NCBI GenBank assembly: GCA_000310025.1
Contig: FN649748.1
Location: 1,770,656-1,817,645 of the forward strand
Length of the DNA stretch: 46,990 nucleotides
Source: Ectocarpus siliculosus
Lineage: Eukaryota > Sar > Phaeophyceae > Ectocarpales > Ectocarpaceae
Direction of reading: 5' to 3'
Part shown: positions 1 to 13,603 of the stretch, one piece after another
Layout: every line of letters starts with the position of its first letter
Position numbering within the stretch: position 1 is the stretch's first letter
Program-made: the position numbers and the translations under genes
The notes under the pieces: model-generated
What the model was told of the DNA's origin: nothing
Databases searched by the model: none
Seen by the model: the letters and a program-made list of their open reading frames with translations, nothing else

Positions 1-178
1 AAGGTGGTTTATGGCGTTCAGAAAAGAAGGTGGTTTGAACCACCTTCTTCTGAACGCCATCGATTCGGGCCTCGGTCTGCCTGTAGGTCTCGAGGCCAGC
101 TGCCGGACTTGTCCCGGCCTCGTCCATCCGGTAGGCCAGGTTCGACAATAGCGCGGAGGTGTCCTCGCCACGGTAGGC
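1..178 (-). CDS. Partial exon of a sibling of the kinase gene, running off the left edge
   Basis: On the minus strand a C/T-rich tract ends in TGCAG at 181-179, followed by an open frame from 178 to the window edge. Its translation contains DEAGTSPAAGLE and TEAR. It closely resembles the start of the exon at 572 on the plus strand, which has NEAGTSPAAGLE and AEAR. The intron sequence in front of the acceptor also matches that gene, so this looks like the equivalent exon of a paralogous, divergently oriented copy. The last ~60 bases form a fold-back, so the reading there may not be real coding. No domain of known function is visible in the exon itself; the family assignment comes only from the paralogue. 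It could be a dead fragment. Confidence 0.5.
11..60. repeat. Near-perfect fold-back hairpin
   Basis: The stretch 11-35 and the stretch 38-60 are reverse complements except for two extra A's in the left arm, with a 2-base loop. Stem ends are ATGGCGTTCAGA on the left and TCTGAACGCCAT on the right. It lies in the minus-strand exon at 1-178. A hairpin with almost no loop is typical of a template-switch fold-back, either in the genome or in library construction. Confidence 0.85.
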
Positions 179-690
179 CTGCAGCATTGGGGGGAAGGGG
201 TAGGGGGCGGGTGGGACGAGGGGGCGTTCGCCGTTGCAAGTGAGTGATTGTCAGGGGACGAACGCGCTGAACTACACATGCAGCATCAAATTTAAGAATC
301 TGGATGTGTATCAAATACAAACCCCCCGCAAGTTACACTTTCCTTTACTTGGTGCATCGGTGAAATGTGTTCGTGTTACCACATGCTCTGCCAGCAATCA
401 AAAAGAATATTTGGTGGTGTTGTATCACAGGCACGAAGTAAAGAACAGTGCAAGATTTTGATTTTTTTCATTTGATACTGCATGTGTAGTCAAGTGTGTT
501 CGTCCCGTGACCATTACTCAGCTCTAAAGTGGTACCTCCCCGCCCTCCTCACCTTCCCCCCGTGATTGCAGGTCCACCGTTGCGGCGACCAAGACAGGGT
601 AGCGGACCTGGTCATCCGCCTGAACGAGGCCGGGACGAGTCCGGCAGCTGGCCTCGAGGCCTGCAGGCTGGCCGAGGCCCGATGCGCGGT
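60..690. repeat. Imperfect inverted repeat (arms about 60-305 and 468-690)
   Basis: The reverse complement of 60-305 aligns with 468-690 through three kinds of sequence: exon, the C-rich intron end with its TGCAG acceptor, and further upstream non-coding sequence. That upstream sequence shares CTGCATGTGTAGT and GTTCGTCCC. The unpaired centre is about 160 bp. The divergence between arms is that of an old duplication, unlike the fresh hairpin at 11-60. It places two kinase-family exons head to head. Confidence 0.8.
179..571. other. Non-coding spacer between the two head-to-head exons
   Basis: It contains the two intron 3' ends of the flanking exons and an AT-richer centre. I see no convincing first exon for either gene here, although both exons need one upstream. 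Either the first exons are tiny, or one copy has lost its 5' end through the inversion. Confidence 0.5.
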
Positions 691-3600
691 AATGCTGGAA
701 GTTGCTCGCCGAAACCTTCGCCGCAACGGAAATCTCGACCACTTCCTTGGCGAGGGTGGTGGAAAAGAAGAAGGTGGGGGGACGGAGGAGGTGACGACGG
801 GGATGAACGGTGCACGCTCGAGAGGGCCACCGGAAGGAGCCGGCCGTAGGCACGACGATCGTTTCTTGTCGACCATAGGCGACGGCGGCGGCGGCGGTGG
901 TGGCGACTACATGTATTCTGGTCGCCGCCGGGGGACCGGTACACCGGAAGGAAGCGGCGGCATCGGTCTCCTGTGCAAATCAGTTGCAAACGTATCACCA
1001 GCAGCATCAACATCGGCAACAGCAGCAGCAGCAGCAGCAGCAGCCGCCGCTGCGGCAACAACAGCTGCGGCAACAGCAGCAGCAGCAGCAGCAGCAGCGG
1101 GGTGTGGCCGTTGTGAAAACGCCAGCTGCGGCCCCGCTTCCCCAGTCCCGTCGACAAGTCCTGCCCAGCAGTGGGCTCACAACTTGGAAAGGGACATGCT
1201 GGTGAAGGCCGGCATGATGGCGGTGATCTCGCCACGGGCGATGGGAGCAGACGATGTAAGCGGCAGCGGCGGTGGCAGCGGCAGCGGCAGCGGGTTTGGG
1301 AACCCGCCTCCGGAAAAAAACGGACGGGGTGAGATGAGAAGACCTCCCGGGCTAGTGGCGCCAGGGGAAGGAGTGACTAACAACCATCCTCCTGGGCTGG
1401 TTGTGCCACGGCGGGGCGACGGCGTTGGCGACTGCAGGGAAAGCGGGTACCGAGGGCCGTTGATGAGCCCGCTCCGTGAAGCGGTGGAAGTGTCGTTGGG
1501 CGGCAGGCGGGTGAAGATGATGGTCTCCACGCAAACCCCGTCGACGAGGCCCGAGGACGTTGGCCACGGCCGCGGCACGGATTGGGGTTGCCCTCCGAAA
1601 CCGCAGCAGCGGCAGACCAGCCCGCCTCAGACCGGCACTAAGAGCACGGAGGCGGCAAGGGAAGCGGCAGCAAGAGAAGGGTGTGGCCGGGCCGTGGGTT
1701 GCCTGACGGCGGCGGCGGGAGCGGCGGCGGCGGGAGCGGCGGGCGGCGGCGGCCATGGCGGCAGCGGTTGCGGTGGTGGTGCCTTCTGTGCAGGCGGAGG
1801 CTTCAGCGACAACGGCGGCACCGGCTGCGGCAACGCTGGCCACGGCGACCGGAAACCGCCGACGATTCCGGTTCTTCAGCATACTGCAGACGCGATGCAG
1901 AAGCAAGAAGTACCGGTGCGCGCTGACAGACTGCTCTCCTTGCCGAGAGCCACAGTAGCAGCAGCAGCAGCAGCAACGGCGGCGTCAGGGGGCGACGCCG
2001 GTGTGGACTGCGTCCCCCCACTGCAAGCCGGCGAGCAGAGCGCGACTTCGATTCGGCGAAGGGTGGACGCGCTGCAGTCAAGGAAGCTGAGGGAGGAGAA
2101 GGTTCTCTGCGTGTTCATGCGCTACAGGTTGGAGATATCCGCCGATAATCTTCGCGGCTTAGACTGTGTTATTCTGGCGAGCGAGGTAAGACGCAAAATG
2201 CTGGGTATTTCAACAACTTGAAATCTGCAAGCTTGTTCTGTCTATGTACAGTCTGATGTTTGGCGTTTTTCGTTTGAGGCGGCACTTCTGACGGAGGTAC
2301 GTGGAACGTTCCCGCGGCGTTTGGTTTGAGCTGTCGAAGGTGAATCCTCTCCGTCTCCATTGTTGCTGCCGTTGTCGTTGTTGTCGTTGTTGTTGCATTG
2401 TTTCTTCTTCAAAGATGCCCTAGCAAACTGTATTCAATGAAAAAATAACGCGTGCCCCTGCAATGCTAACCTGAGCGCATGGTCTACGAGAGCTGTTTTA
2501 CAGTTCGACGCGAAACAAATACACCAAGGCTATGATTCACCCCCGCAAGGGACAAAGCCAACCCTCCGTCCCCTTCGTGCCCTCGATACAAGGGGACCGT
2601 TCAGGGTGTGCCGTTGTTGTTTCGGTGGCATTGGTTGGCACAAAGCGACCCCCCACCGTAGCCCTACACTACTCGCATCGATGTTGGCGGCACCATCCCA
2701 CCAGTCACGTCTGGCACAACAGCAGGGCTAAATATTGATTGTTCACCAACCTTTGAGGCTACCCCCCCTTCCTTCGAACGAAATGCTGTTGAAAAGACAA
2801 ACTCGGACTAAATAGTCGGAGCACTGCCACAGGTGTTGAGTATTGATGCGCTACATAACAAGATGAACCGGAAACGCTAAAACATCCACGTGCATTCACC
2901 CGCCCATCGAATCTCCGACCAGGCGAGACGAGCGGTCGTCAACGCAGAGGTGAAGGCCGCCACCGAGGTCTTCCGGCGGGACATGGCCGAGGCCAACCGA
3001 TTCAGGGTGAGAGGGGGGGAGTGAAGGTGTCACGGTTGTATATACATGCAAGTCATCATCACCTTGTATCCCTCGAGTGCGCAACCAACAGGATCGTCGT
3101 TTGCGCACCATTCCACACAAGAATGCTTGCCATAGCACTCACTTTCGACTCCCTCCCTCTCAGCCTGAGTCGGTTTCCTGCGGCCACCGTCGGCTGGAAT
3201 TCCTCGGTGGCGATTTTCTCCTGCTCGTTCAGGACATTTCGTCGAGCCTGGTCGAATTGTTGTCACGTGCCTCTTTTTCTCCCGGCCCTTGACAGTGTCT
3301 GATGGGCTGGACGTTCTTTAGGGTATGAAGCGCTTGTTGCGCCTGAACCTTTGTGGCACGAATCCGTAGTATCGTAATTTTTGAACTTCCCGGCCGCCAA
3401 AATCGAAGGGTGATGCATTGCAAACCAAATGGACACCAGCAGGCGCAACAATCTACACGTCCTGCCCTACAACTCCCGCCCCACCCCGTCAAGCCTGCTC
3501 GCACTATTCGTATGAATACTAATCCCGTCGCTTTTTTACGGAGTAGAGGCAGCGGCAATACGGGCAGCATCTGTAGCACGATGCTGGTACAGCTGGACTT

Positions 3601-6600
3601 GTCTTTTTCCGCCCTTTGTTTGGCTCTCTTCCTTGCCCCCCACCCTCCATCCCTACGCCCGGATCCTTGACTTGAACACCATTTCCTTCCTAGCTGGGGT
3701 ACTTGTGGGTCTTGCGCATGAAGCCTTTGATTCCCTTGTCAGCCGATCCCCCCCTCCCGGTAAAGACACAACACCTGTAGCGGCATATATCGCTATGTCG
3801 GCAATTAATCCGCCGTCCGGGTGGCAGGCTGTTAGTTTCGTAGGCTTGCCAGGAGTTCCAAAACGTTGAAGGGTTCTCCATCCCACCGACCGCTCGTTGT
3901 TTAATCTCTATATAATACCTGCCGCGTGAATCTGAACGAACAACCTCCGCCACCGATATCTCCCCTCGCTACAATCCAAATAGTTGGAAGCAGAGGCCTG
4001 CAAGGCAGCGCTGGCGGAAGTCGCCGTTATACCCTCCGTACCCGCCAACTCCATCGCCCGAGGAGTGTACGGAGACTGGTTCCATGGACGAGAGTTCAAG
4101 AGGTTCGTCGCCAAGACTCGGGAGCGCTACGGCGACGGGTCGGACGAGCTCTTCGTGGCCACCGACGTGGTTAGTCAGCAGCACCGGGCTCGGAACGGGG
4201 GCGAGGGCGGCAGCGTCTGGGCCGTGGGCGTGAAGGAACTCGGGCAGGGGACCTTCGGAATTGTGACCCGGCTCGACGTTCTCACCCTGGGCAAGAGCTA
4301 CGCCGCCAAGGAGTTCAAGGATGTGAGTGAGCCTTAGCCTCCGATGCGTATGAGTACGTAGCCTTGCTGATCATTTGTGTGTGTATTGCTCCGCGCTGTT
4401 ACTTTACATTCGGGAGAGCACCTCTCTCATGGCAGCATGTATCACGATACGTTCCCGATCCCTTCCTGGAAGTCAGTCGCTCGAGACGCGAAACCGAGGA
4501 AAAGATGAAACCTCGCATCCGTTGCACCGGTCGGAGCCAGCAGGGCAGGGTGATGCTGGTTTGCTGCATTTTTCAAGTATCTGAAAGGTTGTTCGATCAC
4601 TCCAAACCGACATAACCGACATAACCGACATAGAGAGCTACACGAGGCGTGCCAGCATTTTACTCCTAAACCAACACCGTTCAGCACCCTTCCGACACCG
4701 GCATCCTGCGGCGAGCAGACCACCTTGCCACCAAACGTACCCGCCCCCATTCCCCCTTTCGCACCCCTCCTCTTTCCCCCCTCCTCTCAACCTCCCTCAT
4801 TATCCCCCCCGCTTCCTCTCTCTCCCCTCCGCCTTTCCCACCTCTGCCCACTATCCTCTTGACGCCAAAATAACACCGGCATGCACGCCAACACGCTGTT
4901 CGATATCTATTTGACTCCACGTTGCCAACAACTAACTCCCGACGATACCACCAACCAACAACAGCAAGGAGAAGGCGGGGACAATGGTTCCTGGATGAGA
5001 GGTTGTGCTCAGGCGGGTCTCCTGACGGAGATGATCGTTCACAATAGGTGAGAGGCGGCGGGTGGGAAGGGCGGTACGTCCTTTTTTGAATGAACCTTTG
5101 AGGGACGGGGGCGGGGACGGGGGGATACACCCCATGTCGGGTGCTAGACGAAAAATGACAATGTCACCTGCATCGTCCGCGCTTGTTATTTCTTTAGTCA
5201 GAGTTTCACTGTGCCTACCCCAGTGAGAGCCAGTGTGCGAGAGAGGGACACTATTTTGCGTTGCAAAGGTGGAACGCCTGTGTTCGAATGCTGGGTTGTT
5301 GACATGTAGGACAAACAGAAGCACCATCTCGAGTTTGCCCCTAGGCCCGACGTACCATCTTAACCCAGAGAGAGACGCTGAGAATATGACCGACATTGCG
5401 AACGTCAAAAAGAAGAATCGCGCCAACCATACGAGGAGGGCGGTCACAACGTAGCCTCATCGCTTGACAGCCAGCATGTGCCGTACGACCTCACAAGTAG
5501 AACCTACTCTTGCGCTGGTCCAAGTTTGACCGAAAAGAGGTTCCTTCCTCATTTTGGCCAGATCAACCATGCAGCAGTGAGCCACATCTTGCTCTTCCAT
5601 TCTTCTTTTCTTTCCACAGCATGCCGCCGCATGCCAACATCGCCGGGCCGTCCGCCATGGATGACCGGGATAAGGACTCCCTGATCGTCTTCTATGACCT
5701 AGCCGTGGACGACTTCCATGGCTACGCCACGGGACAAGTCCTGGCTAGCCCCGGAGTGCTCATGCGGTGAGTCAGTGTTCGACCAAAAAGCAGTTCTCGG
5801 ACGCCACGTTCACCGGATTGGGTCCTATTTTTTGTCTTCAATGCCGACCATTTGCACGCATCTCATGGCGGTCCTAGCCGTCCAGGCACTTTTGGAATTG
5901 CAGCCCCAAATAATACCGCCTACGATGGAATATGATTCTCTGCGTCGAAAAAACAACGAAAACGAACATGAACTCTACTCGATCTAGAAACATTTTCTCC
6001 CAATGTCCTCTGCCCACCCAACCACCCGGGACAATACTAGGTCCAATCCCCCTTGGCAACATTCGATGAACCCAGGGTCCAGGCCCCCAAATCTAAGCCC
6101 TGACTCCAGCCTAGCCCTCAATCATCAACCAACCCGTTTTTCCAGGGCTATTGTCCGACATGGCTCGAGGGCCGGAGAACGTCGGCCGACATGGAAATTT
6201 TGCACACAATGGCGTAAAGCCTGGCAACATGTTGGTGTTCGAGGAAGGATGTAGGATGGGAACATGCTTCCTCGGCTACATGCTTCCTGAAAGACCAGCA
6301 TGTTGCCAGGCTTGACGTCATTCTGTGCAATTCCATGTCGGCCAAGGTGCCCCAGCCCTCGAGCCATGTCGGACTATAGCCTGGCAAAACGGGTTGGTTG
6401 ACGATTGGGGGCTAGGCTCGAGTCAGGGCTTGGGTTTGGGGGACTGGGCACAAGATTCTTTGAACGTTTCCAGCGAGTATCGTGCCTAGTTGCTGTTCCT
6501 GTCTACGTGCAGTGGTGGGGTCGTTGACGTCGAGTCGTCACTTTGAGACATTGGCTGTTGTGTTGTTCGTATCGTTTCTTTCGAGGCAGAGAATCGTCTC

Positions 6601-9600
6601 GGAGGGAAAGGGATCACCCGGCCGGGCGTGTAGTGGCATCATTTCCGGCTGCACGCTTCACCCAAACTAGAACTTCAAGGAGACAAGCACAGACAGATGA
6701 TCGGCAACTTAGAGATGGAGATGTCGACGAGGTAGGGGTGGCGGCATTGTCGGTGTGTATGTGTGTTTTGTATGCAGGGGGAGAGGGTTGGGGGGCGTTC
6801 CTAGGCAGAGAGGTCCCCTTCTGTAAAAAATGAAAGAACACACCCCACGGGGCAAATCCCGTCCAGCCCAAAAATGCTTACGCGGTGAGACAGTTCTCCA
6901 TGCCGTCTTCACGTCTTTGCAGAAGCAAGTCTCTCTACCTAGGAATACGGAGGAGGGTCGATACCTCCTCCCCCCCTTTCCTTCAGCCCATTACCTCCAC
7001 CATACACACCTACACACAGAAAATTCCTCCGCCCCCACATCGTCGAAATCTACACATCTACGTTTCCGGCACCTCTGTGTGTCTCATGAACTTCTTGCTT
7101 GGTTGATACCGTGCTGCCCGTAGCGATGCCGCTCCACGCCCGGGCTTCCCCTTCCCTGGCAACAGAGTATTCATTGTGAAATACGCAACACAAACGACAC
7201 AACAACATATAGTTCAATCTCAGCGTCGGGATTGACTCTATCTCCAACGCCATCAACGACGGTGCTCTGCGTCAAGGTAGATGCATCACTCGCCAAGGGC
7301 CCCGCCACTCCCGCTCCGTGGAACAACAACCAGGCACGCACGATCTCCCTTCCGCAACATTCGGGAAGACGTGCGTGAAAACCCCCCAAACCCAGGCCCT
7401 GACCCGAGCCTACCGTCAATTGCCAAACAACCCGTTTTACAGGCTGTTGTCCGACATGGCTCGAGGGCTTGAGCACCTTGGCCGACATGGCGTCAGCCAC
7501 AACGACGTGAAGCCCGGCAACATGCTGGTCTTTCAAGACTCGGGGGTGCTCGTTGCCAAGGTTACCGACCTCGGATGTGCTCTCGGTGGGTGGTCCCTTT
7601 TAGCGTGCGTTGCTTTCTAGCAGTTGTTGGGGCTTCTACAGTAGCTTTAGCTGTTTATCGTGGTCGTAGCCGTTGAGGGACAAAATCACATACTCCTACA
7701 CATAACGACTTCATGATGGATAATACGCCAACTCGAACAAACATAGCTACGTTGGTTCGCGTCAAACATGTGTGGTGTGCCGTTGTTGATATTGCCATGA
7801 CCGATCCTGAGAGGCATTCTGTAGAGGGGCACGGCATAGGCACAGGCAGCGGGGTGCTAAGAGACCTAGGCGCGCACGCGTGTCGCGGGGGGGGCGCGAT
7901 GCAAGTCGTCACGTACCATTAACATGACAAACTGGCAATAATCCAGTCGCACAAAATGCCGCAGTGGTCCCAAAACATCTCAGGAGCTTCCTACAACGAA
8001 CGGCCACATACTCAAGGTACCTCTACCTCTTGCCGACAAGTTCCATATATCTATGCGTACGGCTTGACTAGAGGCGCGAGTAACGTACGGAACAAGAAAA
8101 AATCGAAAAGCCGAGTGTAACGGCACCCTCGAAAGACGGGAATCAGCAGCATGAGGTTCTGAAGAGGTCTAAAGTGGTCCTACAAAATCAGGTTGTTGAG
8201 TAGCGTCTGCACGCACTGACACACCGGATCTTCCATGACACGCAATATAGAACCGATTGTGTCCTGAGACAAACACGACGGGAAGAAAAGGTTAGAGAGG
8301 GTACAACGTGGTGTTTGGAGTTACGGAGATAACTTGTTTCCACCCGTCGACGGAGGCACTAATCCAGGAAGGGCAGTGTGTGGTGGTGGGCGGTAGTTTT
8401 GGGGAAGGTGGCGGAAGGCCCATCGAGAACATGATGGCAACCAATCATTCCTTCCCCGCGCATCAAATGCAAGTTCATCGGCTCGCCGTACCAATCGCAA
8501 GACGGGAGACCAGCCATCAGGAACAGGATGGCAATGCCATGGTTTGTGACGCGCGTCCGCTTGTTTCTTGCGGCGTGCAGCTCACGGAGACATGAGGAGG
8601 GGGCAGGGCACGATCGGAGGCCAGGTGCCAGAAGGGATGATGAGCCGGGAGGTCGCGTGCGAGCCGTCTCAGGACGTGTTCGCTCTGGCGCACATGGTAT
8701 TGCTGACGCTAACGAAGAACGAGTGGAAGAGTAGCAATATGTGGTTCAGCCAGGTGGGTGCTGGTGATGCGCGCTGTAGTTGCTGTTGTTGCTGGTGGCG
8801 ATGGATATGTTGCCCTTCGATATTCTCGCGTGATAGAGGCGGTGACTTGGTACCACGGCAATCCACTTTGCAATATGCTCGATTTCAAGCTGATTTCCAT
8901 TTCCCTCGTCGATCCGCTGCTTCTAAACTTGTTGCGATTACATTTGTTTCCAACTACTGGCTAAGAGAGAAATGTATCGTCTTTGCGCTATCCGCAACAT
9001 ATATATATGTATTGTCTCAGGCGGTCCAGACGGATGGCGACAAGGAAATCATCAGCAAGATGGAAGGGAGAAATGCTTCTGTTGCTTCCAAGCACCATTT
9101 TATGGTGAGTCAAACCGAAGCAGCAGCAGGCAACATTTCACACCCCTCCCCCCCCTTGCCATGATGGGGGAAAACTTCCGTGTACGGCCAGTGGTATTCG
9201 CGTGAGGCAGCGAGGCAGGCAGCAACGGCGGGCTTAAGCACTACATGGTATGGCCGAGTTGGTGGTGTTGGTATCATCACTTACTTCTACGATGATGGAA
9301 CATACCATCTTCGTCGATTCTCGGCATCTATCTCCTTTTCGAGAGCAAGCAAGTACCACGGCTGGTCGTTTGGGCCATGTAGAGCAGTAGTATTTCAATA
9401 CGTGTGCGAGGGTGAGACGGATATGGCATAGTATGGCGTGGTGTTGGTGTGTTGGTGTTGGTGTTGTGAGAGGTGAGCGAGTGTGGTCAAGAATGAATGA
9501 GATACCCAATCGATGAGACTTTACCCCTAGTGGTGCCAGCCAAACTCTCACTCATTTTAAGACCGACCACCGATCAAGCTGAGAACGAGAACCAATCGAT

Positions 9601-12387
9601 GAGACTCTTCCCCTGCAGTAGTGGTGCCAGCCAAACTGCTTCCCAGGTCAAGGTCGTGTCCTTGTCGACCACCGTCAGGTTGGTTTCTATACCCCCGTCG
9701 GCGTAAACTCACCAATATGACCTATGCTCCCCCATCAAATCGATCCTGGATGGATGTAAAACCTGCACGTTTTTCAAGTCCTATACCCTTCGCCTGGCTG
9801 AGCGGTTCGTTCCTGTCATGCGGTTTGACGCTAGAAGTTGGCGGTCGTTTGGGCAAGGGAATAAAAAGAGCCGCCGTGCCCTCAACTCCTCACGCCCCCG
9901 TTTCCCCGTCCGTGCCACGCCATCGAATGCCCTGCTGTACCTGTCCGAAACAATATCTACATGTGCAGGACGAGGTGACGCTTCGCAACCAGATCGACCC
10001 TCGCGCCCGCGCAGCCCTGCTCAATCCGGAGCACCTGTATGACGGCCTCACCGACGGAGTCAAGGAGAAGGTGAGAGCACCGAACGACAGTATTTTCGGA
10101 GTATGGAACATTTGTGCAAACTATTGATCTCATGGATCAACGGCGAACCGCTAGACCAACGAAACAATACTGATACCGCTATTCATGATGAACATAGTCT
10201 ATCGTGCATACCTTGAACGTTTCGTTCTATGCACCACCTGTCACCGGTTTTGACCAAATCAAGAGTCTCCAACCGAAAGGACCATGGACCTTCGGAATCT
10301 AGCTTAGGAAGCGCGTGTAACTTCCAAGTTGTTTCACCCATCCATCCATGCCCTTGGTAGTGATTTCAGCCTGCACCCCGTTCACAATACATCCGCGAGG
10401 GTATATGACCAAGGCGTGTTGACTCTGCACCTGGTACTCCTTAAACCGCGTGGAAAGCCTGTCAGCCCGAGAAACCGAGACTGATCGCGTCCGAAACGAC
10501 AAACAAATGACTGAGCCGCTGATAGAAGACCTTATTTTCACACGCACGTTTATTTTCAGTCTCAGGCAACAAGCGATTTTATGACCCCGCCGAAAAGCCA
10601 TTTAGAGGTGAGATTGGAGTGAGTGTTGCGCCCCTTATTGCACGTTGCCTTCTCCAGCTTATCACTCTTCTTTTGACCATCTGTTCTCCTCCGTCCTCCC
10701 TCTTTCCGTTACCGCCTGTGCTTGTAAGGTAATCATCCTTCTCGCCAAGGCGCTCTCGCCAGACCCGACCAAGCGACCTCCCATGGCCGAGATGCTCGCC
10801 GAGTTGGACGACATGAACGAGTGCCTGCTCGAGATCGAGACCCGGGGCGTCATCTTGGCGGCGATGGCAGCGGTGGCTGGGGGGGGGGCGTCCCGAACGG
10901 TCAGCACAGGCGCCGGAAAGGGTGGCGTCGCCGACGACCACGGAGCGCCCCACCCGCCGCCGCCGCTGCCCGCTACCCTCGAGCCGGTGTCTGGAGCTTT
11001 CGAAGGACGCGGGAGCGCCGTTCCACAGCAGGTCGCGGCCGTTGCAGGGGTAAACGTCATCCCGTCGATCATCCCGGAGGTGGCGGTGGGCCCCGCCGTT
11101 TCGAGGGAAACAGCCGACGGTAGTGCTGCTGCTGAGGAGGAGGAGGGAGGAGGAGGCGGACGTTCAGCTCTTGCTCCACTGGCGACGCCAGCCACCGACG
11201 TACAGAGGTCGACCGTATCCCGACCCCTCCAGGAAGGTTCCGTGCCCGTGTTGGGAGTTGTTTCTGGAGGAATACCGTCCCATAACGGTCGCAGCGGGGG
11301 TAGTCACCATGTTGTGCCGGTCGCAAGCACAGCATCGGTTGTCCAGAGCGAAGTTGTTACCGGGGGGTCCGCGGCGGTGATGCCGGTGTCTGCTGGTGCG
11401 GGGGGAGGGGTGGCGGTGACGGCGGCGGTGGGAGGAGGAAGGAGAGTGGTGGACAGCCAAGCACGCCTCCTGCAGTATCCAGCGAGGCGAAGGTCACCAC
11501 GCACCGGCGATGTAGCGGCGGCACATGGAGTGGTAAAGGCAAAAGGAGGCCGAGGGACAGGGTTGGTGCCACGGGCGTTGGCGGTGAACGATGCCGCTCC
11601 CTATGTCGTTGGAGGAGGTGACGGAGGGGGGCTTCGCACGTCGCACCACAGCAACCGACTCCCTGCGGGTCCTGCGCCGAGGAGGTCCACCACCAGGAGG
11701 AACGCGGCCGGTGGTGCAAGAATGGACGCCGACCGTGTCACCAATTCCCACAGGGCCACCAACACTGCACGGGGGGGGGTCCCGCCGTTCGCCCACCGAC
11801 AACGCCGATTCAACCCCCGCGGTCCCCAAGGCCAGGGCAGGACGAATGCCTGCCACGGTGGGCACCACAGCGGCAGCAGGAGCCACGGATCTTCTTCTTC
11901 CCTCCGCCAGGGACACCGCCACCAACACCACACCGGCGTGCCGCTTGCATGGGGGCACCACCACCTCCCCGCCGCGGCGAACAACCTGGTGCTGCCGCGC
12001 CCGCACCCGCAGTTCCGGGTATACCCGCAGCACCAGCAGTCGTGGGGCGTGGGGGGAGTAGGTGTCGCACCCTCTCAGTACTTCCCTTCGGGGTCCTCGA
12101 CAAGGCAGACGCACCAGGGTGGATATGTCGGGGGAGGAAGAGCAGGCGTGTTCCGCCCGTCCCAAGCCCCGGTGCCGCTGCCACCGGTACCACAACCTTC
12201 GATTTACCACGACCCGAGGTACGCGGGAGGATGCGGCGGCGGCGGCTGCGGCGGGTGGGGTGTACCCCGTGCGCCAGGACACATGCCGTTTATCCCGGGT
12301 GGAGCGTTCTTGCCTGTCAACTACCCACTGGCGACAGGTGTCAACGGGTTCCCGCCCAGGTGGCAGAAAACGTGCGTTGTGCGGTGA
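572..12387 (+). CDS. Divergent protein kinase with long low-complexity flanks (5' partial, 10 exons seen)
   Basis: Exons: 572-2185, 2923-3006, 3984-4322, 4965-5047, 5620-5766, 7443-7585, 8581-8753, 9021-9104, 9969-10070, 10729-12387. They sum to 4428 nt in one frame (at least 1475 aa). The first ~540 residues are Ala/Gly/Ser-rich with a poly-Ala run. A charged helical stretch leads into the kinase domain. Visible motifs: Gly-rich loop LGQGTFGIV; VAIK-like AAKEFKD; helix C LLTEMIV; catalytic loop SHNDVKPGN; metal loop DLG; subdomain IX PSQDVFALAHMVL; and PDPTKRP near the end. Lys, catalytic Asp, the loop Lys and Asn are kept, but HRD is HND and DFG is DLG, so activity is likely but not certain. 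The C-terminal ~500 residues are Gly/Pro/His-rich and probably disordered. The acceptor of exon 4965 could instead be ~50 bases further in, in the same frame. The exon before 572 is not in the window or not recognised. The subfamily is not clear; tyrosine-kinase-like Ser/Thr kinases are the nearest guess. Confidence 0.88.
1018..1103 (+). repeat. Interrupted (CAG)n repeat in kinase exon
   Basis: Two CAG runs, at about 1018-1043 and 1074-1100, are separated by an imperfect stretch. In the gene frame they read GCA and give poly-alanine; in another frame they would give poly-glutamine. Length variation here would change the alanine tract without breaking the frame. Confidence 0.9.
6080..6250 (+). 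pseudogene. Decayed direct copy of the kinase catalytic-loop exon
   Basis: It matches 7383-7545 including the intron end, with TTTTTCCAG as former acceptor, and the exon start TTGTCCGACATGGCTCGAGG. Extra bases near 6206 break the frame and the catalytic Asp codon is altered, leaving only the VKPGN part readable. It shares changes with the inverted copy next to it (GGCTAT start, AATT..GCACA), so those two copies split after separating from the functional exon. Confidence 0.8.
6284..6446 (-). pseudogene. Inverted copy of the kinase catalytic-loop exon, still open
   Basis: Read on the minus strand it gives SDMARGLGHLGRHG and then QNDVKPGNMLVFQ. It therefore keeps the catalytic Asp, Lys and Asn in frame, with CCAG in front of it where the acceptor would be. 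It lies antisense inside a kinase intron, so it is not used by the plus-strand gene. No donor follows it and it reads into the neighbouring copy. Confidence 0.8.
9506..9640 (+). repeat. Short direct duplication in a kinase intron
   Basis: A block starting CCAATCGATGAGACT and ending GGTGCCAGCCAAACT occurs at 9506-9546 and again at 9592-9635, with a few differences. Confidence 0.85.
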
Positions 12388-13603
12388 TGTACACTGTACA
12401 TATTTTGATGAGACGAAGAGCGTCTCAACTGTCTCAACGGATGCGTGTTTTCTTGGGCGTGTGTGTGCCCCTGTATCACGGAGAGGCGCGGAGATCGCAT
12501 GTACAATATTATCGTGATTATGAGCAGCTATAGATACTATTCGGTTCCTGTGATTCAAAGGGAGGCGCTTTGGAACGGCACTTACTCTTTTGCTAGGGGG
12601 AGGGCCGGATGTAGATCTAACCGGGAGGGAGCTAGCTAGTGGTCTTTCGGTGGCGGGGGCTGCCCATGTAATTCGATCATGACGTTGTGAAGTGATGCGA
12701 GAAGTGCAGTGGGAGTAGTTTCTCGACCTCAACGGTACGCTGGTGTTCGACGAAACGGGGTAGCACAACGTTTCGAATATTGTACAAGAGGGGGTAAGAG
12801 AGGAAGAGAATAATCTGCTCCGAGATTGTGGCATCTATGCTGTTGGTTCGCCCGCTTGAAGCAAGTACAACTCGTCTGTGTGTTTGACGAAACGGGGTAG
12901 CACAACGTTTCGAATATTCTACAAGGGGGTAAGAGAGGAAGAGGATAATCTGCTCCGAGATTGTGGCGTCTATGCTGTTGGTTCGCCCGCTTGAAGCAGG
13001 TACAACTCGTCGGTGCACACGAAACAGAGGCCAACGTCTCGACTGTTGTACATAGCACGCCACGCCGGGCGGTCGCAGTTGCCAGCCACCAAAGGCTCAA
13101 TCAAGGCTGTGACCATCATGGGATCGCTCGCTCGAAGCTTCTTCTTGACGCCGTTGTTTGTTTTGTCGACTGAGTGACCGAGCCAAGTGTGCTGAAGTCC
13201 CGCGTCCCGCGACACACGCACCCGTTCATGATGAGAGATGTTCGCTGTTGTTTTCTTCCCCTCTTTCCATTCTCTGTCGCGCCGAATCCCGGCTGATTTT
13301 CTCCTCTGGGTCCACTACAGCAACCGAACGTGAAGCGAAAAGTCACCCTACACCCCAGCACACACGCTATGGGTGAAGCGAAAGGCCACCCCACACCTAC
13401 ATAACACCTATTTAACACACACGACAACAACGACATTGCCGCATTTCTTTTTTTTTGCATCTCCCGATCAGTCCCCGATCCCCCCTCTCAGGGTTTCGTA
13501 GTGTAAGAGCTGGCCTCACACACATGATTGCGCATGTGTGTGAGCACCACGCTGCTGGGGCATCTTCTGTACCGTAGTTAGACACCTGTGCGACTGGGGA
13601 GAT
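12388..13603. other. Intergenic region between kinase and oxidoreductase genes
   Basis: It should hold the kinase 3' untranslated region and the promoter of the next gene, which is transcribed in the same direction. Apart from the tandem duplication at 12744-13017 I see no gene. Short minus-strand open frames cross the duplication but only repeat its unit. Confidence 0.6.
12744..13017 (+). repeat. Tandem duplication, 137-bp unit, two copies
   Basis: Units 12744-12880 and 12881-13017 both run from TGTT(C/T)GACGAAACGGGG to GTACAACTCGTC. They differ by only a few substitutions and a 3-base indel near GTACAAG. High identity suggests a recent event. Confidence 0.92.

Follow-up and report, generated by a model that had tools for sequence, protein, structure and literature searches.

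A window of 46,990 bases from the genome of Ectocarpus siliculosus (C23:1770656-1817645, C23 being contig FN649748.1 of the 189-Mb, 492-contig assembly GCA_000310025.1) carries on its + strand a predicted protein kinase gene in which the catalytic-loop exon and adjoining intron are present as an array of three copies in alternating orientation. The array lies in intron 5767-7442 and the exon that follows, and consists of copy A (+, 5934-6254), copy B (-, 6276-6834) and copy C (+, 6908-7538), the last being the part of the living gene that B mirrors and taking in both the splice acceptor and the kinase catalytic loop. It is best read as an old and decayed inverted triplication, or the product of serial fold-back copying, generated by DNA template switching, and we put the probability of this reading at roughly three in four.

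Each pair of copies is recovered by gapped local alignment. A (5934-6254) and inverted B (6595-6276) are identical at 244 of 302 ungapped positions (81%, score 295), B (6285-6834) and inverted C (7538-6908) at 409 of 530 (77%, score 351), and A (5961-6239) and C (7255-7532), in direct orientation, at 198 of 269 (74%, score 183). The best scores in 30 shuffles for each pair were 39 (A-B), 38 (B-C) and 44 (A-C), and both a repeat finder and self-BLAST concur with the alignments. These results bear out an initial annotation of this DNA, which had described alternating fold-back copies of the catalytic exon within the gene's own intron and whose positions (6010-6250 and 6284-6840 for the copies, 7443-7585 for the exon, with about 500 bp of intron) are correct to within tens of bases. 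The direct copy at 6010-6250 is present, although its start lies earlier, at 5934, and the inverted copy does mirror exon together with intron, B corresponding to 535 bases of intron and the first 96 bases of exon in C. The likeness of B to C ends at 7538, which is 47 bases short of the predicted exon end, and 21 bases (6255-6275) and 73 bases (6835-6907) separate the copies at the two turns. Inspection by eye shows the turns to be strongly decayed, with A and B having bases in common past 7538 that C lacks.

The kinase gene has a glycine-loop piece inside 3984-4334, an exon at 5620-5766, the catalytic exon at 7443-7585 and later pieces. When joined by hand, the pieces match Pfam Pkinase (4.7e-13), with TBK1 as the best solved structure (3.1e-5). 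The exon upstream of the array (5620-5766, +) is an open frame within this joined protein, ending in ...ASPGVLMR before a donor GT at 5767-5768, with splice ends taken from the sequence only. The predicted intron of 1676 bases (5767-7442, +) contains A, B and the intronic part of C, and it is followed by the functional catalytic-loop exon (7443-7585, +; HNDVKPGN...TDLG). The exon ends were predicted from the sequence and from an AG that precedes it at the same place and in the same phase in six of nine kinase relatives (L023-L028), two others (L029 and L031) reading through without an AG and L030 being ambiguous; because of these six, the intron looks older than the array. The nine relatives are further kinase-exon loci found by protein search, and among L023-L027 several copies, separated by tens of kilobases on C11 and C23, occupy opposite strands. 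A search for relatives in viral contigs gave 46 pattern hits, none of which was confirmed.

Both extra copies of the exon are damaged. Copy A, which comprises the end of the intron, the acceptor and the opening part of the exon, carries one additional G after its AG and is thereby frame-shifted; read in the phase that exon 5620-5766 imposes, it runs into a stop at 6252-6254, and G stands in place of its catalytic D. Copy B has a stop as its second complete codon, its translation beginning L*SDMARGL and reading L*SDMARGLGHLGRHGIAQNDVKPGNMLVFQ, with the NDVKPGN motif downstream of the stop. Differences between C and B amount to 7/71 non-synonymous and 8/22 synonymous, between C and A to 9/71 and 12/22, and between B and A to 8/70 and 5/23. 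The 10% non-synonymous change between C and B is about half of the 23% overall, which fits neutrality if only B drifts at those sites, and the exon copies appear to be decaying as neutral pseudo-exons. It had been pointed out that the inverted copy still reads NDVKPGN. The motif is there; it follows a stop, however, and the pattern of decay around it matches neutrality, so that its intactness was rejected as a sign of use. A mutually exclusive duplicated exon was likewise rejected, A being frame-shifted and lacking an equivalent of the donor, and B being inverted with a stop.

Genome searches, which score the best candidates only and skip simple repeats, place the array at a second locus. A query of 7383-7585 finds six places, namely the three copies here and the same three, inverted, at C23:1.9007-1.9022 Mb, and queries of 5768-6100 and 6440-7390 match only the same two loci in the searched part of the assembly. 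The second array sits about 123 kb away in an inverted segmental duplicate of the kinase gene of about 13 kb (window ~44-13186 against C23 ~1.8954-1.9082 Mb), the two duplicates being 96-97% identical over 2421-12416 and less so toward the ends. The functional exon differs between them by 4 synonymous and 0 non-synonymous changes, counted over 7444-7587. A mobile fold-back element was considered and rejected, since only the two gene duplicates match among the best-scoring candidates and the array thus does not behave as a mobile repeat. Its presence in both duplicates indicates that it predates the 13-kb duplication. Under a clock, and with conversion set aside, it would be several times older than the gene duplication, because B and C differ at 121/530 positions (22.8%) compared with 144/4059 (3.5%) between the duplicates outside the focal intron.

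The copies include intron as well as exon, which places the copying at the DNA level, and the alternating orientation, the 21- and 73-base spacers and the included intron together point to DNA template switching; the earlier suggestion of a scar of repeated template switching is supported by this geometry. A replication strand would have switched template at least twice, one switch folding back to copy exon and intron in reverse as B, and a return switch producing the alternating order of the three copies. The copied part would have ended inside the exon at 7538, with the result that neither extra copy has a donor and the gene retained a single working version of the exon. The array would then have decayed, perhaps with gene conversion between its arms and between the gene duplicates, and would have been carried along in the inverted duplication of the 13-kb gene region. 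The template-switch origin, the number of events (one or two) and any conversion are what we infer from the present sequences. Within the core (C 7383-7538), A and B differ at 19/158 positions, B and C at 24/156 and A and C at 33/156, making B intermediate between A and C.

Structures of this kind have been described elsewhere. The closest is the small inverted triplication (SIT) of yeast and human cancer, with the same DUP/INV/DUP order and spacers of tens of bases (PMC13334657). Like an SIT, the array has two direct copies around an inverted one and short spacers at both turns, and its sizes fall inside the reported range (reported medians 148/160/148 bp, spacer 30 bp); 407 of 574 annotated SITs overlap gene bodies. 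However, SITs are newly arisen in mutant yeast and tumors, whereas the copies here have decayed by 19-26%, predate a segmental duplication and include unequal flanking copies. An inverted center copy between direct copies, with palindromic junctions, is also found in ODIRA and DUP-TRP/INV-DUP rearrangements (PMC10766186; see also PMC4352052), but these are described as spanning kilobases to megabases, with a replication origin inside in the case of ODIRA (PMC10766186), and the present array is under 1.7 kb. In dystrophin, exon 50 is flipped inside the gene along with flanking intron, a change ascribed to template switching during replication (PMC4303224); that event turned the exon itself around and was accompanied by deletions, whereas the kinase gene gained extra copies and its exon stayed intact. 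Long intronic inverted repeats also lie beside a duplicated exon in U2AF1, where they are proposed to loop out or repress exons (PMC5224494), although both of those exons are used, with splicing tested in reporters, and the copies here are not usable exons. The available part of a paper on exon shuffling in brown-algal ROCO genes holds no parallel, the words inverted, opposite and antisense being absent from it (PMC11378527). Open-access keyword searches, which cannot prove absence, returned no title or abstract opening describing an alternating array of inverted exon copies in an intron.

Several points weigh against the template-switching reading. No counterpart of C 6908-7240 is present in A, so that a triplication in a single event needs a later deletion, and any reverse-complementary micro-homology at the switch points, about 6 bp in SITs, is illegible after this much decay. 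Conversion between the arms is possible, with a weak sign in the clustering of sites shared by A-B or B-C (over 7290-7538, 57 sites fall into 22 runs where 29.4 are expected, p 0.03; over 7383-7538, 31 sites fall into 14 runs where 16.1 are expected, p 0.28); as the three sequences are unrooted, such sharing cannot separate a stepwise from a single-event origin. No other 1.5 kb of the duplicated region, moreover, has diverged as little as the array. The duplicates differ there at 15/1508 positions, and none of the 106 overlapping blocks outside it has fewer than 28 differences (5e-5 when 79 outside bins of 100 bases are resampled as though independent); neutral decay without conversion fails to predict this. 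For the focal intron as a whole the figure is 20/1674 (20 of 1675 aligned positions over 5767-7442) against 144/4059 in the other introns (Fisher 2e-7), these being the stretches between the exons used, some with approximate ends. The two longest identical runs between the duplicates fall in the array (291 and 260 bases; p 0.036 and 0.0035 against an even spread), the second of them extending 36 bases into the exon, and the third and fourth (233 and 230 bases), also in excess, fall elsewhere. Gene conversion between the two loci is tentatively preferred here to selection on the intron as the cause of this low divergence. Constraint on RNA structure was rejected as an explanation, with no support from three comparisons of the two sequences: paired positions show no significant shortage of substitutions (9/1095 paired, 6/414 unpaired, p 0.26), no change is compensatory, with 4 of the 9 paired-site changes keeping and 5 breaking the pair, and the loss of A:B energy is ordinary, 24 of 100 random substitution sets losing as little or less. 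The array is most likely a scar, and the observed substitutions lend no support to a function.

The least improbable rivals would give the array a role in RNA. A stable fold-back is predicted on the strand of the host gene, 5934-6600 folding at -395.5 compared with -221.4 for 40 shuffles (SD 7.7) and 6276-7540 at -663.1 compared with -437.7 for 15 shuffles (SD 9.5), all energies being calculated without proteins or kinetics. In the best predicted fold of 5768-7600 (-866 kcal/mol), the exon-like half of B pairs with A and its other half with the intron of C. The A:B stem has 163 pairs (6077-6262 with 6268-6449) around a predicted 5-base loop, and the acceptor is left outside it, within a small local stem. 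Such an intronic stem might be cut into small RNAs that silence the kinase and its duplicate, a self-targeting hairpin that we consider unlikely. In its favor are the stem itself, whose region folds with an energy lower than that of shuffled sequences by about 23 standard deviations, and a 21-base stretch of B (6354-6374, -; C23:1777009-1777029) perfectly antisense to the exon at 7449-7469, A having 20 of the 21 bases in sense. A genome search with this stretch, allowing up to 3 mismatches, gave seven matches, consisting of A, B and C at both loci and one place with 3 mismatches, and a reversed control gave 1. In addition, 75% of Ectocarpus microRNA loci lie within protein genes, mainly in introns, with a mean fold-back of 170 nt; the same source nevertheless reports no evidence tying the origin of these microRNAs to protein-coding sequence (PMC4513859). 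Against the hairpin there are also the substitution results given above, and a search of 5600-7700 with Rfam, where two microRNA models fell well short of their thresholds (31.8 of 107 and 30.1 of 80 bits). In the route attributed to Allen et al. 2004, microRNAs reportedly originate by inverted duplication of the target gene. The fold-back arms there derive from the target's own exon, as here, but the present copies lie inside the target's own intron and their hairpin is a prediction.

A broader version, also improbable, would make the intron self-regulating. B would be a built-in antisense able to cover the acceptor, and A would act as a first-made decoy, either protecting splicing or yielding 21-base products directed at the kinase and its duplicate; should this be true, selection and not conversion would explain why no part of the duplicated region has diverged less than this intron. 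The purely splicing form of this idea, in which B either covers acceptor and catalytic loop or is captured by A, so that A keeps the exon spliced and the balance could set its inclusion, is quite unlikely. It draws on two mutually exclusive predicted folds: if A is excluded from the pairing, B forms 139 pairs with 7383-7538, spanning acceptor and catalytic loop, at -816 kcal/mol. The pre-mRNA duplex over these features proposed in the initial annotation could therefore form if A were not paired with B, but as a second-best fold some 50 kcal/mol worse. From its order, A would be transcribed before B and C, and in the model it would work against a duplex that hides the acceptor; the intron is moreover unusually little diverged between the duplicates. 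Against this stand the lack of significant depletion at paired positions in the two sequences compared and the terms left out of the energies.

Palindromes are hard to assemble, but an assembly artefact is very improbable, as the copies differ mutually by 19-26% and the entire array recurs at a second locus with differences at 15/1508 positions. That A serves as an exon in place of C is hardly credible, for although its T-rich tract and AG are kept and one phase holds a long open frame, the extra G puts it in the wrong phase, the copy stops short of a donor equivalent and the catalytic D is lost.

Inverted pairs were also surveyed in 24 pieces totaling 214,583 bases (22,949 of them N). The window has seven, three of which are the array, the duplicate (L007) has 4, L009 and L011 have 2 each and L012, L015, L028 and L029 have 1 each. 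None was found in the other 16 pieces, including all six that come from outside the locus (L036-L041; 60 kb in total, partly N). Near the kinase relatives, seven of the nine loci have none within about 3.1 kb, and L028 and L029 have one palindrome each, that of L028 matching nothing in the window. Two imperfect palindromes, some 230-240 bases long, at L028 1083-1310 and L011 3480-3720 are alike by eye and perhaps belong to one family of miniature inverted-repeat elements. Within the kinase gene, 65-363 and 425-682 are inverted copies of each other (76%), and the pair overlaps both the beginning of a long open frame (566-2218), which is probably an upstream kinase exon, and the stretch preceding it; its counterpart in the duplicate is a + - + triple (L009 1703-1955, 1991-2280 and 2419-2602). 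A probable kinase exon at 2916-3029 has an inverted 74% copy just downstream (3140-3254) that crosses the likely donor. With these two further inverted repeats over probable exons the kinase gene looks rich in fold-backs, in a small sample, and the two repeats count in favor of the template-switching reading. A tandem repeat of two copies of a 135-base unit (12743-13015) follows the last long open frame of the gene.

According to one source, palindromic junctions are unstable and seldom occur in natural genomes (PMC10766186); another calls small inverted triplications inherently unstable (PMC13334657). The array in E. siliculosus is old, lies in an intron of a multi-exon gene and survives in two duplicates, which suggests that scars buffered by introns can persist for a long time. 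It also offers a clean place to ask whether scar hairpins get recruited to the control of splicing or to small-RNA silencing.

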